DNA of 37,356 nt, taken from positions 1 through 37,356 of IMG/VR virus record IMGVR_UViG_3300021952_000013. One strand, written 5' to 3'. The DNA comes from a virus. Positions within the stretch are counted from its first letter, which is position 1. Every line of letters starts with the position of its first letter. Of this stretch, positions 32,034 to 37,356 are shown in pieces. A program made the position numbers and the translations under genes. The notes beneath the pieces are model-generated. The model did not search any database. It was not told the origin of the DNA and saw only the letters and a list, made by a program, of their open reading frames with translations.

Positions 32034-32780
32034 TTGGCACCCGGCAAGAAAAACACACGCTCCTGCATCATCTGCGGACAATCATTCGCCATTGCAACCA
32101 TCTCAAAAGGTCGCACCTCTGTACGCCGCACATGTTCACAAGAATGTCGTGGCAAGTTATATGCACAAACGCGTCGTATCTGGATTGACGAGGAAGTAGC
32201 AATTCTCAAGGATCACGCTGAATCAATGCCATGCGACAACCTTATCCGCATCTTCAACACACAAAATAAACTTGCTGGTCGACCTAAACGCACTGCAATT
32301 TCAATCAGGAGCAAACTCGAAAAGCTTGGTTATTCACTTGAACCAAAATACAGATACCTCAGCGCATCAGCCTTGGCTCGTGTATTGGGTATCTCTGGCG
32401 ATGCAGTGCGTTATTGGTTGCAACTTGGACTCAAAGGCGTACGCAATCGCGACGTACCTCGATCTCCTGTTTACATCACAGCCGTTGAATTGCGTAAATT
32501 TGCACGTAAGAATCCACGCTTCTTTGGTGGCATTCCACGAATTGATTTGTATCTTGCTCTTGAAGATGAAGATCTTGTCGATCAAATTCTTGCGCAATAT
32601 CCAAAACGTAATTCCTGCATACAAAAACCAGTTCGTGTTAAATGCGTAGAAACCGGTCGCATCTACAACTCACAAAGTGATGCGGCGCGTGCCATTTATG
32701 TCAATCGTTCCATTGTTTTTCGCGCTATTAAATACGGCCACCGTGCCGCTGGTTATCACTTCATTACTCTTGACTCATGA
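32034..32780 (+). CDS. modular DNA-binding protein: zinc finger, SANT-like, HTH, NUMOD1
   Basis: 248 residues from TTG 32034. Order: a zinc finger (CIICGQSF and CSQECRGK, residues about 11-40); a SANT/Myb-like helical unit (WIDEEVAILKDHAESM, then GRPKRTAISIRSKLEKLGYS); a MerR-like HTH (SASALARVLGISGDAVRYWL); and a C-terminal NUMOD1 motif (VKCVETGRIYNSQSDAARAI with GHRAAGYHF). These modules usually guide homing endonucleases, but no HNH or GIY-YIG nuclease is seen. A DNA-binding regulator derived from a homing enzyme is likely. The stop overlaps the next start (ATGA). Confidence 0.7.
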   Translation: MAPGKKNTRSCIICGQSFAIATISKGRTSVRRTCSQECRGKLYAQTRRIWIDEEVAILKDHAESMPCDNLIRIFNTQNKLAGRPKRTAISIRSKLEKLGYSLEPKYRYLSASALARVLGISGDAVRYWLQLGLKGVRNRDVPRSPVYITAVELRKFARKNPRFFGGIPRIDLYLALEDEDLVDQILAQYPKRNSCIQKPVRVKCVETGRIYNSQSDAARAIYVNRSIVFRAIKYGHRAAGYHFITLDS

Positions 32781-32974: not shown

Positions 32975-33417
32975 ATCACTGCTATTCCTGGAAAACAATT
33001 GGCATCCCTGCACCACAAGGCAGCAAACGCCATGTTGGTATGGGTCGCATGATCGAATCATGTAAGGCTCTCAAGCCCTGGCGTCAAACTGTCATTACTG
33101 ATGCACAGAAACTTGGTATCACACAGCCGATCCTGACGCCTGTCAGCGTCTCCCTAGTGTTCTGTTTCCCACGACCCAAATCTCACTTCAAGAAGAATGG
33201 CGATCTTCGTTCCGGCAGTCCTTCACACAAGGCTTCCAAGCCTGATATTGACAAACTTGCTCGCGCTATTCTCGATAGCCTCACGCTGGCAGGCGTTTTC
33301 AAGGATGATGCTCAGGTTTACAGTCTCACCGCTGCAAAGCGTTATTGCATCGGCAATGAGGATCCTGGCGTCATGATCACCCTGATGAACACGGATCAGG
33401 TCGCAGGCGATAACTAG
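32971..33417 (+). CDS. rusA: RusA-family Holliday junction resolvase
   Basis: 148 residues from GTG 32971. The family features are clear: the N-terminal IPAPQGSKR strand-turn, RPKSHFKKNGDLRSG, and the core KPDIDKLARAILDSLTLAGV followed by FKDDAQVYSLTAAKRY, giving the conserved catalytic aspartates and lysines. It resolves branched DNA before packaging. It is the last gene of the rightward early operon, just before a strong terminator. Confidence 0.92.
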   Translation: MNHCYSWKTIGIPAPQGSKRHVGMGRMIESCKALKPWRQTVITDAQKLGITQPILTPVSVSLVFCFPRPKSHFKKNGDLRSGSPSHKASKPDIDKLARAILDSLTLAGVFKDDAQVYSLTAAKRYCIGNEDPGVMITLMNTDQVAGDN

Positions 33418-33442
33418 GTGCTATATTGCGTTTGCGATTGGG

Positions 33443-33486
33443 TCGCCCTGTGCTGAGGCAGTGGTCTCACCGGGGCGATTTTTTTT
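33443..33486 (+). terminator. rho-independent terminator of the early operon
   Basis: TCGCCC (33443-33448) pairs with GGGCGA (33473-33478); a small inner stem TGAG/CTCA lies within the loop. Eight Ts follow directly (33479-33486). It lies 26 nt after the RusA stop and ends the long rightward operon. Confidence 0.85.
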
Positions 33487-33511
33487 ATGCTGTGATCACG
33501 CAGGAGGCAGC

Positions 33512-34315
33512 ATGATCGAGATCGTATTCAAGCCTGAAGAGATCATTGGCAAGATCACTGAACTGCAGAAGGTTCAGATTCCACGCGCCAGTGCAATTGC
33601 CCTGAATCAAGCTGTCTACGCTGCGTCTCAAGAGTTGAAGTCACAGGCCAAGACGATTTTCAACAATCCTGTTCCGTTTACTGTCAATTCTTTTTTATAC
33701 AAAAAATCTCAGCAAGTAGGTGAAAACATTGAAGCCAAAATTTTTATTCGTGATGAAGCTCCTAAAGGCAATGCGCCTGCCAATTACCTGCTGCCTCAGA
33801 TTTACGGTGGCAAGCATTTCCCAACGCGTTTCCAAGGCGCCCTGCTGAACACTGTTGTTCAAAACGCAACGGGTAGAAATGTGCAGGTTGGTCAGCGTGG
33901 CAAGATCATGATTCCAAGCCTGCGAAGTCCGAAGGTACGCATCAATCAATATGGCAATATGTCACCTGGGCAATACACGCAAATCTTGTCCGCCTTGAAG
34001 GGGAACATCAGTTCAGTCGACATCTACGGCGTCAGGCAGCGCGGTGAAGCACCAGTCAACGATCAGGCGCTCAGCAAGTACATCTACCTTGATGAAGAGA
34101 GCCTGTACGAGCCGTACTTTCGGCGTCGTTTCACGAACTCACCCATGCCTGGTATTTACTTTGTCGACAGACGCACCGCTGGCACGCGTTACTACCGCGT
34201 CATGACGGAAAGCAAAACACCGACTTACAGCGGTAAGTTTCCTTTCATCGATATTGCAACACAGGCTGCAACACAACGCTTCAATGAAGTTTTCTCGTCG
34301 ATCATTTTGCGTTGA
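33512..34315 (+). CDS. minor tail/tail completion protein, gpZ-like (tentative)
   Basis: 267 residues from ATG 33512 with AGGAGG about 8 nt upstream, one of the best ribosome sites in the window. Residues about 15-60 (VQIPRASAIALNQAVYAASQ, ELKSQAKTIF) recall the helix start of lambda gpZ (VPGAAAMAINRVASSAISQ, from memory). The middle is beta-rich with GKIMIPSLRSPKVRIN; the end has FPFIDIATQAATQRFNEVF. gpZ finishes the tail top. Here the gene stands alone between a terminator and a repeat region, far from the tail cluster, so it must have separate transcription. The family is uncertain. Confidence 0.5.
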   Translation: MIEIVFKPEEIIGKITELQKVQIPRASAIALNQAVYAASQELKSQAKTIFNNPVPFTVNSFLYKKSQQVGENIEAKIFIRDEAPKGNAPANYLLPQIYGGKHFPTRFQGALLNTVVQNATGRNVQVGQRGKIMIPSLRSPKVRINQYGNMSPGQYTQILSALKGNISSVDIYGVRQRGEAPVNDQALSKYIYLDEESLYEPYFRRRFTNSPMPGIYFVDRRTAGTRYYRVMTESKTPTYSGKFPFIDIATQAATQRFNEVFSSIILR

Positions 34316-34437
34316 AGTTCTTGCAGGGTGTCGGTTTAAAGGGCGAAGTTCCTGCAAGGGGTCGGTTTAAAAACCTCGAAGTTCTTGCAAGGGGTCGGTT
34401 TAAAGGGCTATGTACCGGATCAGGATCGGTTTAGGAT
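34314..34437. repeat. iteron-like direct repeats, three and a half copies
   Basis: Copies begin at 34314, 34345 and 34378 (unit GAAGTTCYTGCARGGGGTCG then GTTTAAA), and a degenerate fourth at 34409 keeps GGATCGGTTTA. Unit spacing is 31, 33 and 31 bp. The first copy overlaps the preceding stop codon. Spacing of about three helical turns in noncoding DNA suits protein binding: an origin, a partition site or a regulatory array. Confidence 0.85.
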
Positions 34438-34442
34438 AAAAA

Positions 34443-34632
34443 TGAGAATCGTTCTCAAAAGGTACGTTTGTACTATTAATAATGAGAATCATTCTTAATA
34501 TGCGGCAAGGCGCATGAGATCCCAAGAATGAGAATCATTTTCACGCCGCCATACGGTCACCCGGAATCGTTGCAACTGCGAATCATTCGCAACAGCAGTA
34601 GGCGCACGCGTCCTAGGTGAGAATCGTCGCGA
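34443..34632. promoter_or_regulatory. array of Fur-box-like palindromes
   Basis: TGAGAATCGTTCTCA (34443-34457), TGAGAATCATTCTTA (34483-34497), TGAGAATCATTTTCA (34529-34543), TGCGAATCATTCGCA (34577-34591, a perfect 7-1-7 palindrome) and the half site TGAGAATCGTCGCGA (34618-34632). Starts are 40, 46, 48 and 41 bp apart. The 7-1-7 design with GAATCATTC at its centre matches bacterial Fur boxes closely. Binding by host Fur or by a phage protein is inferred. Confidence 0.7.
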
Positions 34633-34659
34633 GACCGCGAGCGGTTGACCTTATATATG

Positions 34660-34872
34660 GGTCGCAATGGCGCGACCGTTTGCCCAGATGCAGCCCATAC
34701 CGTCGCCCGCTGCTGCTGTGCTAGGCAACGCGCCAAACCGCCAAACCGGCGCACGGTGCCGCATGCTGTGACAATCGGCGAACCGTCCTAATTTTCAGCA
34801 CAGCCACCTTGCCGCCTACCGGTAGGCGCTATCATTCATGCATCGCCCGGATCCAATCGCTCACCGGGCGAT
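34660..34872. repeat. cluster of palindromes and hairpins before the GC-rich module
   Basis: Three inverted repeats: GGTCGC/GCGACC (34660-34677, 6-nt loop), the perfect 16-bp palindrome CGCCTACCGGTAGGCG (34813-34828), and ATCGCCCGG/CCGGGCGAT (34842-34850 and 34864-34872, 13-nt loop). None has a T-run, so they are not simple terminators. The last ends 9 nt before the HTH membrane gene and could fold in its leader RNA or act as an operator. I see no convincing coding frame in 34316-34881. Confidence 0.6.
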
Positions 34873-34881
34873 CCTGAATCA

Positions 34882-35070
34882 ATGACTCTCACCGCTCTCC
34901 TGTGGCTGCTACTGCCCTTGCTGGCCGTGGTTGCCCTGATTGATCTGGCCACAATGAGCCAAACCCGCCGCGTCCGCTTGCTGCGCAGTGCCGGTCTCTC
35001 GCAATCGGCCATCGCCGCTCGTCTTGGTTGCAGCCGTTATCGCGTTCGCCTTGCCCTTGCCGTCGCATGA
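34882..35070 (+). CDS. membrane-anchored helix-turn-helix protein
   Basis: 62 residues. Residues 2-24 are one hydrophobic helix (TALLWLLLPLLAVVALIDLA). Residues about 29-62 form a resolvase/sigma-like HTH (RVRLLRSAGLSQSAIAARLG, then CSRYRVRLALA). The two are joined by a short basic link (SQTRR), so the HTH would face the cytoplasm if the basic side stays inside. A DNA-binding unit tethered to the membrane is unusual at this size. It heads the GC-rich module, with palindromes upstream. Function unknown; candidate regulator or DNA-anchoring factor. Confidence 0.6.
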   Translation: MTLTALLWLLLPLLAVVALIDLATMSQTRRVRLLRSAGLSQSAIAARLGCSRYRVRLALAVA

Positions 35071-35149
35071 TCGGTCCCATCCTGCCCGGCGAATCTGCCG
35101 CCTTGATTCGCTCCATCCAGTCACCCGTCATCACTACCGTTTGCCTGCC

Positions 35150-35791
35150 ATGCCTGCCACCATCACCATTCAGTGCCGCGATCAGTCCCGCTCAGTCCCT
35201 GCCGTATGGGTCGGCGAAAATCTCGCGGTTCATCGCCCGTTAGTAAAAGGTGCCCCTAGCACGGCTGCCCGCCATTGGGCGATAACCCATACTGCAAGCG
35301 GGCTGGCTGCCTGTTCATCATTTGATGGTCCCAAATCTGCAGCCGTCAACCTGGCCAAGTTATGGGATAAAGCATTCGGCACCATGGACGCCAACAATTC
35401 CCGCGCATGGCCGTATTGCCAGACTTGGATCGCGGACGTTCGCCTAGCGCAATGGCACGGAACCGAACGGCCGAACGGTCCCATCCTGCCGGATCATCCC
35501 AAACCGCCGGATGTGGCTGCTGCTGTTGCTGCTGCTGTTGGCGCAACCTATGAACCGGTCGGCGCCGATGAATCGGGAGAGCCGTTCGCGGCTGCTGAGA
35601 TCCTGCCCGCTGATCGCGTCCGCATTGTGGACGGATGGCCTGAGGTTTTTTGGCGCGGCCAATGGTGGCCAGTTCCGACCGTTGGTGAGGTTGAATCTAT
35701 GGTTTTTGATTCGGTCGCTGAATCGCCAGACGGGCAAACGGTCGAACCGGATCATCCCGAATCTTGGCCGTCAATCTTGGGGATTGTATGA
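35150..35791 (+). CDS. hypothetical protein of the GC-rich module
   Basis: 213 residues from ATG 35150; the frame is open upstream but that part is proline/histidine-rich and overlaps the previous gene. The N-terminal ~80 residues (ITIQCRDQSRSVPAVWVGEN, RHWAITHTASGLAACSSFDG, then AAVNLAKLWDKAF) look like a small folded domain. An Ala/Val repeat (DVAAAVAAAVGATYEP) comes from a GCTGCTGTT tract. The C-terminal part has VDGWPEVFWRGQWWPVPTVG. No family is recognised. The 51-aa gene follows with ATGA overlap. Confidence 0.58.
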   Translation: MPATITIQCRDQSRSVPAVWVGENLAVHRPLVKGAPSTAARHWAITHTASGLAACSSFDGPKSAAVNLAKLWDKAFGTMDANNSRAWPYCQTWIADVRLAQWHGTERPNGPILPDHPKPPDVAAAVAAAVGATYEPVGADESGEPFAAAEILPADRVRIVDGWPEVFWRGQWWPVPTVGEVESMVFDSVAESPDGQTVEPDHPESWPSILGIV

Positions 35792-35943
35792 ATCACCGTC
35801 TCTGGCCAAGTGCCGCCGATGAAGCAGAACAGGAGGCAGCCGACTTTATGGCCGCTCACCCTGAATTGCCCGATGGCTGGCTGCCTGATCCTGAAGACGT
35901 GGCGCCATGGTGGCACTGCGATGCTGAACCTTACGAATTCTAA
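35788..35943 (+). CDS. 51-residue acidic Trp-rich protein
   Basis: ATG 35788 overlaps the previous stop (ATGA) and the frame ends at TAA 35941-35943, 2 nt before the next ATG. It reads RLWPSAADEAEQEAADFMAA, then HPELPDGWLPDPEDVAPWW and HCDAEPYEF. Strongly acidic with four tryptophans. Tight coupling at both sides supports it as a gene. An acidic, DNA-mimic-like or inhibitor role is only a thought; no family is recognised. Confidence 0.6.
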   Translation: MNHRLWPSAADEAEQEAADFMAAHPELPDGWLPDPEDVAPWWHCDAEPYEF

Positions 35944-35945
35944 CA

Positions 35946-36191
35946 ATGCAAACCGTTCTACTGTTCAAGGCCACAAATGACCGCAACGGCAACCCGTGCC
36001 GCGTCTTTGCCGCATTCGATCAATTCGGCCGGATCACCGGCGCTTGGGATGAAGGTTATTCCGGTCACCATGCTGTGCCGCCTGAATTGCGCAGCATCGC
36101 TGCCACTTGTGATGCAATCGCCGTTAGCCAAGTGACCTACCGCTCACTTCTGCGGCAAGGGCAGCAGGCACTGCGATTCTCTCCCGTTTGA
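35946..36191 (+). CDS. hypothetical small protein
   Basis: 81 residues: strands LLFKATNDRNGNPCRVFAAF and FGRITGAWDEGYSGH, then a helical end (AVSQVTYRSLLRQGQQALRF). The start lies 2 nt after the preceding stop. The pattern N-G-N-P-x-R-x-F resembles small proteins found next to Gp88-like genes in plasmids and phages. No known function. Confidence 0.58.
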   Translation: MQTVLLFKATNDRNGNPCRVFAAFDQFGRITGAWDEGYSGHHAVPPELRSIAATCDAIAVSQVTYRSLLRQGQQALRFSPV

Positions 36192-36215
36192 TCATCGCCA
36201 ATCGCAACCCACACA

Positions 36216-36920
36216 ATGGCCAAACTCTCAGATCTGAGATTCCACCTGACCCGCTTCAGTTCAAACGTCAAGACCGGTCCTATCCCGGTCAGCACTTCGT
36301 CCCGCGTTACTTGCCCCGCGTCTTGCCCGTTTGCCGGCAATGGCTGCTACGCGGAATCCGGACCGCTTGCCCTGCACTGGCAGAAAGTCACAGCAGCAGA
36401 ACGCGGCGAATCGCTACCCCGATTCCTTGCCGCAATCGCCGCCTTGCCTGTTGGCCAGATCTGGCGGCACAATCAAGCGGGCGACCTGCCCCACACTGCA
36501 GGCCGAATCAGCCGCCGATTCATGCGGGCGATCATCGCCGCAAACCGTGGCCGCAACGGGTACACGTACACGCACCACAACCTGGCCATCGGCGAGAATG
36601 CATCGCTAATCCGTTCGGCAAATCGCAACGGATTTACGGTTAACGTCTCAACCGAAAGCATGGCCGCCGCTGATTCAGCCATCGCCGCCGGTTTGCCTGC
36701 CGTGCTGGCTGTGCCATCCGATGAGAAGGGAACCGCTTGGCTAACGCCTGCCGGGAATCGCGTGGTTGTCTGCCCTGCGCAGCGGAGCGATACAACGACA
36801 TGTGCCGATTGCAAGCTGTGCCACAAGCGGCCGCGAAACCTGATAATTGGATTCATTGCTCACGGCACAGGCAAGCGACGCGCTAGTGAAGCGATCCGCA
36901 AACGAGAACCGCTCGCCTGA
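36216..36920 (+). CDS. Gp88-like / DUF7227-type cysteine protein
   Basis: 234 residues. A clear family pattern: KTGPIPVSTSSRVTCPASCP, GNGCYAESGPLALHWQKVTA, VGQIWRHNQAGDLPHTAGRI, NGFTVNVSTESMAAADSAI, VPSDEKGTAWLTPAGNRVVV and CPAQ...CADCKLCHKRPR. I recall this as the phage and plasmid gene-88-type family of unknown function. The two cysteine clusters (CPxxCPF..GC and CxxCxLC) suggest a metal or iron-sulfur site. It is the last gene of the module and is followed by a terminator. Family fairly sure; function not known. Confidence 0.75.
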   Translation: MAKLSDLRFHLTRFSSNVKTGPIPVSTSSRVTCPASCPFAGNGCYAESGPLALHWQKVTAAERGESLPRFLAAIAALPVGQIWRHNQAGDLPHTAGRISRRFMRAIIAANRGRNGYTYTHHNLAIGENASLIRSANRNGFTVNVSTESMAAADSAIAAGLPAVLAVPSDEKGTAWLTPAGNRVVVCPAQRSDTTTCADCKLCHKRPRNLIIGFIAHGTGKRRASEAIRKREPLA

Positions 36921-36941
36921 TTCAACGGCAAACCACAATCG

Positions 36942-36966
36942 CCCGGCCATCGCGCCGGGTTTTTTT
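36942..36966 (+). terminator. rho-independent terminator of the GC-rich module
   Basis: CCCGGC (36942-36947) pairs with GCCGGG (36954-36959) over a 6-nt loop, followed by seven Ts (36960-36966). It lies 21 nt after the Gp88-like stop. Confidence 0.9.
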
Positions 36967-36972
36967 GTGCGC

Positions 36973-37230: not shown

Positions 37231-37277
37231 AAACTGTAACTTGAGAATGCGTCGCAATTGCAGCCCCGTAGGCGCCC

Positions 37278-37319
37278 TGTTGATTCTCAATTGCAGTCAA
37301 TGTTGATTTTCAATTGCGG
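37278..37319. repeat. two direct repeats in the putative cos region
   Basis: TGTTGATTCTCAATTGCAG (37278-37296) and TGTTGATTTTCAATTGCGG (37301-37319) match at 17 of 19 positions, 23 bp apart. A partial third copy, CGCAATTGCAG, lies at 37253-37263. Two-turn spacing next to the genome join and upstream of terminase suggests binding sites for the HTH small terminase, like the R sites of lambda cosB. Otherwise nothing coding is seen from 37148 to the window end. Confidence 0.7.
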
Positions 37320-37343: not shown

Positions 37344-37356
37344 GGTTAATTCGAAC
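37344..37356. repeat. terminal direct repeat, right copy
   Basis: GGTTAATTCGAAC, identical to bases 1-13. The outer GTT and AAC are symmetric, as expected for a staggered-cut site, but the symmetry is partial. Confidence 0.85.

Follow-up and report, generated by a model that had tools for sequence, protein, structure and literature searches.

In the phage genome considered here, the region 34443-34660 is best explained, with middling confidence, as an operator array for the regulators Zur, Fur and LexA of the host, through which the gene cassette at 34882-36920 would be controlled. The predicted content of the array is three Zur-type boxes, one Fur-type box, one conserved half-site and one LexA-type (SOS) box (Table 1). 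The window, i.e. the whole stretch of DNA that was analysed (37,356 bp), is the entire IMG/VR virus record IMGVR_UViG_3300021952_000013.

The gene set is that of a lambda-like siphophage and includes terminase, portal, head, tape measure, central fibre, endolysin and RusA genes. Since the head protein is nearest to those of Synechococcus phages S-CBS3 and S-CBS1 (about 50%), the DUF7227 protein is nearest to that of Synechococcus phage S-SRP01, and the motifs agree as well, we infer that the host is a picocyanobacterium and that the phage belongs to the freshwater picocyanobacterial viruses. In the phage collection searched, no DNA relative of 33400-36930 was found among named phages, and no boxes were found in the genomes of S-CBS3 and S-LBS1. 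The search for prophages in 400 picocyanobacterial genomes gave no close one, only distant terminases (best 51%). Several palindromes are strongly avoided in the whole window, namely CAGCTG (0 observed against 10 expected), CCGCGG (0 against 6) and GCGCGC (0 against 5), which suggests restriction pressure on the phage genome.

Operator-like sites and their counterparts in host promoters

In the 37,356-bp record, no sites other than boxes 1-4 match TGAGAATNATTCTCA/TGCGAATNATTCGCA with one mismatch or none. In 60 dinucleotide shuffles a mean of 0.03 such matches per genome was obtained, and at most one match, even with up to two mismatches, fell within any 200 bp. The sites are intergenic, kept in relatives and far denser than expected by chance, as in phages with clusters of CtrA-type sites. 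An earlier note on this DNA had described five sites spaced near whole helix turns. Four of these are indeed 7-1-7 palindromes (34443, 34483, 34529 and 34577), including the perfect one that had been announced, at 34577; the fifth, at 34618, is a half-site with five mismatches, in which the left half alone is retained and is conserved in relatives. The regular phasing did not hold, as the spacings of 40, 46, 48 and 41 bp correspond to 3.81, 4.38, 4.57 and 3.90 turns and differ in relatives (37/47/40, 67/47 and 59/40/38). The LexA-type box and the degenerate second array were absent from that note. The inverted repeat between boxes 2 and 3 is also kept in LexA-type relatives, besides Zur-type ones.

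Table 1. Features in and around the two arrays of the phage genome
Feature	Position	Strand	Sequence or comment
Direct repeats, 3-4 copies, ~32 bp	34314..34433	+	GAAGTTCTTGCAAGGGGTCGGTTTAAAGGG, iteron-like
Box 1, Zur-type	34443..34457	.	TGAGAATCGTTCTCA
LexA-type box	34461..34474	.	GGTACGTTTGTACT, between boxes 1 and 2
Box 2, Zur-type	34483..34497	.	TGAGAATCATTCTTA; perfect TGAGAATCATTCTCA in most relatives
Inverted repeat, conserved	34500..34515	.	ATGCGGCAAGGCGCAT, between boxes 2 and 3
Box 3, Zur-type	34529..34543	.	TGAGAATCATTTTCA; perfect in L003-L006
Box 4, Fur-type, perfect 7-1-7 palindrome	34577..34591	.	TGCGAATCATTCGCA
Half-site, conserved	34618..34632	.	TGAGAATCGTCGCGA
Promoter-like motif, conserved	34645..34658	+	TTGACC-TTATATAT, abuts half-site 34618
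Second promoter-like element, conserved	34813..34835	+	palindrome CGCCTACCGGTAGGCG, then TATCAT (TATGAT/TATAAT in relatives)
62-aa ORF, first cassette gene	34882..35070	+	apparent hydrophobic segment, then helix-turn-helix
DUF7227 protein (PF23872), last cassette gene	36216..36920	+	7 invariant cysteines
Intrinsic-terminator-like hairpin and T-run	36941..36968	+	closes cassette
Second array, degenerate	37242..37313	.	adjoins genome end; relatives: TGAGAATGCGTCGCA, TGAGAATCARTCGCA, TGAGAACCGTTCTCA, TGAGAATGATTCTCA

Comparison with picocyanobacterial promoters made it possible to distinguish zinc boxes from iron boxes. Using a pattern blind to the arm letters, a TGA-type palindrome was found upstream of znuA in 18 of 20 picocyanobacterial regions and the TGC type in none of the 20. 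For this count the top-scoring PF01297 matches (L362-L391), essentially without a box and probably representing a manganese paralogue, were excluded, and weaker-scoring ZnuA matches were used instead. In high-GC picocyanobacterial genomes, near-exact TGAGAATNATTCTCA sites are located at znuA, znuC and CobW-type genes, which account for at least about half of 20 loci picked for inspection, the genes being partly identified by eye from translations. The sequence TGCGARTCATTCGCA accompanies feoA-feoB and idiA and also precedes the gene of an IdiB-like regulator of the Crp family, close to ferritin and fur. In these promoters, TGC...GCA arms mark the iron (Fur-type) box and TGA...TCA arms the zinc (Zur-type) box.

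Boxes 1-3 are 7-1-7 inverted repeats with TGA...TCA arms as at znuA, and TGCGA[AG]TCATTCGCA arms, characteristic of feoA, idiA and the idiB-like gene, are present in box 4 only, whose 15-mer is identical to one upstream of idiA in a picocyanobacterial genome (L494). Because the arms match these two kinds of host sites, boxes 1-3 are predicted to be Zur-type and box 4 Fur-type. The suggestion of Fur boxes in the earlier note is therefore correct at the level of the Fur family and for site 4, and the arms of sites 1-3 are those of zinc boxes; an iron-only Fur reading of boxes 1-3 was rejected on comparison of zinc and iron promoters. No convincing TGA-type box was found upstream of flavodoxin genes (one weak AT-rich match in 30 regions) or at fur loci (1 of 30). 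Since Zur and Fur boxes are partly alike in sequence, the same sites could be shared by three paralogues (Fur, Zur and PerR).

The LexA-type box fits the cyanobacterial LexA consensus RGTACNNNDGTWCB and is one base off the Synechococcus CC9902 recA box CGTACGTTTGTACT; both the consensus and the picocyanobacterial recA/lexA sites are published (PMC3091678). Related phages contain the boxes AGTACAGATGTACT and AGTACGCATGTACT, identical to published Prochlorococcus recA boxes. Four relatives (L007-L010) carry arrays of AGTAC-N4-GTACT boxes in 16-bp steps in the same slot as the Zur array, and in the other contigs L116, L127, L137 and L061 the LexA and Fur/Zur kinds are interleaved. Among the matches listed, five contigs have a Fur/Zur box with an exact LexA box no more than 400 bp away, against none for the mirrored control.

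Relatives, the adjoining cassette and the genome ends

Ten related loci were gathered via the gene at 33461-34315. L003-L006 have retained every box or almost every one, and most are more perfect there than in the window, so that the loss of symmetry in relatives, named in the earlier note as evidence against its proposal, was not observed. Four boxes in L011 and three in L012 stand amid diverged spacers; in these two and in L025, three or four boxes remain despite the divergence. Within the close clade, column conservation averages 93-98% for boxes 2-4 versus 85% for spacers. The phage G402, bearing a Zur array, is 95-97% identical to G404 and G405, bearing a LexA array, across most of the early half, and the two kinds differ in the stretch that starts at the array and includes the downstream cassette. 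Judging from these alignments, array and cassette are exchanged as one unit between near-identical phages. The 6-kb fragment L011 contains its four boxes and none of the cassette genes of the window. The covariation of operator type with a cognate regulator was not seen, as phages with Zur and LexA arrays share early genes that are 95-97% identical. The FUR domain (PF01475) was found in none of 10 phage records, some of them fragments, at E<=10, and in all 14 controls. A phage-encoded binder is unlikely, since other candidate binder genes are near-identical across the swap and there is no FUR-family gene.

Direct repeats of about 32 bp are located beside the array in all ten relatives gathered; they end in GTCGGTTTAAA and are kept whichever operator array comes next. 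A motif similar to the promoter-like one after the half-site, TTGACC-ATTATAT, is found at 95-107, upstream of terS, and a consensus promoter scan gave nothing at 34645-34658. The TATCAT at 34830 belongs to the second −10-like element, about 200 bp past the last box. The geometry of repression is uncertain because the TTGACC-TTATAT element departs from a standard promoter and because of this second element.

The 62-aa ORF matches HTH_23 with 22.3 bits, below the cut-off. It is conserved with the cassette in most Zur-array relatives and is absent from LexA-array ones. In the DUF7227 protein the cysteines are arranged as CX3CX6C and CX9CX2CX2C, and seven invariant cysteines would suit a metalloprotein. 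Its AlphaFold model is confident (pLDDT 88.5) and gave no significant match in the PDB, only weak sub-threshold ones to TIM-barrel and radical-SAM enzymes. A general link between DUF7227 and such arrays was considered and rejected: outside the clade, a box of any kind was present at only 2 of about 62 loci, and the association is thus specific to this clade. The sequence CCAATCGC recurs about 10-25 nt before cassette start codons (34852 and 36202 regions) and in relatives, in the position expected for a Shine-Dalgarno sequence.

The second array is intact in relatives, where it comprises 3-4 boxes, and no obvious promoter is present there. In relatives, the two arrays together hold up to eight boxes per genome; near-perfect sites in one host genome are few by comparison. 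The locus L012 keeps array 1 without array 2. Positions 1-13 and 37344-37356 are identical (GGTTAATTCGAAC), and the relative G401 terminates at the homologous point, with GGTAATTTCGAAC; this suggests that the phage has cohesive (cos) ends beside array 2. The TerS proteins of G402/L012 and of G404 are 91% identical to that of the window, and these phages are without array 2; G404 is also without Zur-type boxes in array 1.

Similar arrays are found in other viruses. Two nearby TGMGAATNATTCKCA-type boxes gave at least 120 matches in viral contigs versus 2 for the mirrored pattern over the whole collection, and clusters of three or more boxes are present in about 40 contigs among the matches listed. 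In some contigs with 38-45% GC, a terminase gene lies downstream of the boxes, at a distance of a few hundred to about 1,800 bp. Aquatic phages thus seem to carry arrays of Fur-family-type boxes widely. Diverse contigs with 36-45% GC (L105, L126, L138, L154, L163, L171, L183, L207 and others) carry 2-7 Fur-family palindromes; these arrays often have this same position relative to terminase genes.

Possible action of the array and other explanations

In the preferred reading, metal-loaded host Zur and Fur and intact host LexA would bind the array and hold down the promoter or promoters of the cassette, which extends from the small membrane/HTH peptide to the DUF7227 protein; the second array would perhaps extend the repression to the late region. 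The repression would be lifted when the host is starved of metal or its DNA is damaged, so that phage expression would follow the metal and SOS state of the host. The array might also mediate activation instead of repression, given that bmtA is activated by Synechococcus Zur (PMC9337993). Titration of Zur and Fur may occur alongside promoter control. In this scheme we infer the identity of the host, the binding, the direction of regulation and the promoter controlled. More tentatively, array and cassette may be regarded as an exchangeable 'sensor cassette', whose Zur, Fur and LexA operators would integrate zinc, iron and DNA-damage status, with related Fur-family arrays widespread in aquatic phages. 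Sensing or titration of host regulators, proposed in the earlier note, remains the leading reading; its restriction to iron and Fur was incomplete, given the zinc boxes and the LexA-type box.

Zur/Fur titration is ranked as the main rival. The boxes would serve as a decoy or sponge for host Zur and Fur (and LexA) as phage genomes accumulate, without control of phage promoters, and host zinc or iron uptake or SOS genes would be derepressed to the benefit of the phage. The excess of boxes in relatives over near-perfect host sites, the place of array 2 at no obvious promoter and the loose spacing and phasing speak for this explanation. In our opinion, it is nevertheless rather unlikely: the array is swapped with the adjacent cassette, a coupling superfluous for a pure sponge, the last box/half-site abuts a conserved promoter-like motif, and array 1 occurs in L012 without array 2. 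Phage regulators typically have operator arrays near control regions, and the phage does encode a weak D5-like regulator (32034-32780) and the small HTH peptide (34882-35070), either of which might bind sites merely resembling host boxes. This possibility, the main alternative in the earlier note, has lost ground and is considered improbable, since no FUR-family gene was found in 10 phage records, different operator types occur in phages 95-97% identical in early and regulatory genes, the L011 fragment has boxes and none of the cassette genes, and three separate host operator types are combined in one array.

Iron sensing through Fur alone is very improbable; the iron type of box 4, identical to the site at idiA, and the overlap in sequence of Fur-family boxes are in its favour, but boxes 1-3 have the zinc-type arms seen at znuA, and convincing TGA-type boxes are lacking at the flavodoxin regions and fur loci. 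The least probable of all is a role in DNA processing, as cos/TerS packaging sites or replication iterons. Array 2 does lie beside the 13-bp terminal repeat and upstream of terS, and boxes of this kind precede terminase genes in many other viral contigs. However, array 1 includes a LexA-type box and is separated from the ends by about 3 kb, and a packaging role with TerS is disfavoured because this protein shows 91% identity between phages that have the arrays and phages that lack them.

Known systems and biological meaning

Phages with clustered sites for a host regulator have already been described in the case of CtrA, Spo0A and LexA (for LexA, PMC4551915). In phages of Alphaproteobacteria, clusters of host CtrA sites regulate the phage in so-called 'lytic deferment' (PMC9437464). 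As here, dense sites of a host regulator occupy intergenic or terminal regions; they evolved repeatedly there and were proposed to read out the state of the host. However, CtrA is a cell-cycle regulator with demonstrated binding, whereas in this cyanophage metal sensors and LexA are predicted from the sequence. Host PhoB binds cyanophage promoters in S-PM2d, and some predicted Pho boxes of that phage did not bind it (PMC10976474); therefore, box prediction alone is weak evidence. Use of a nutrient-sensing host regulator is common to S-PM2d, to pstS of P-SSM2 and to the phage considered here, but single Pho boxes respond to phosphate in the former, and multi-box arrays for zinc and iron are present in the latter. 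The phage GIL01 and others are repressed by host LexA, which in GIL01 acts with phage gp7 (PMC4551915). These phages resemble ours in having boxes of the host LexA type in a control region, but in ours, unlike GIL01, LexA-type boxes are combined with or exchanged for Zur/Fur-type ones. In Synechococcus WH8102, Zur boxes were found at znuA/znuC and bmtA (two at the latter), and Zur of Synechococcus acts as a repressor as well as an activator (PMC9337993). The box and the host group are the same; there host genes have one or two boxes, whereas here phage genes have four or more.

No report of Zur/Fur operator arrays in phages was found in the open-access literature, where the listed papers on Zur boxes were covered by title and abstract. 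Trace metals limit picocyanobacteria, and no report of viruses sensing the metal status of these hosts was found in the open-access literature. If host Zur, Fur and LexA do control the arrays, the course of phage development would be tied jointly to zinc, iron and DNA damage, and the swapping of operator arrays among near-identical phages would be a natural experiment on tuning which host signal is followed.
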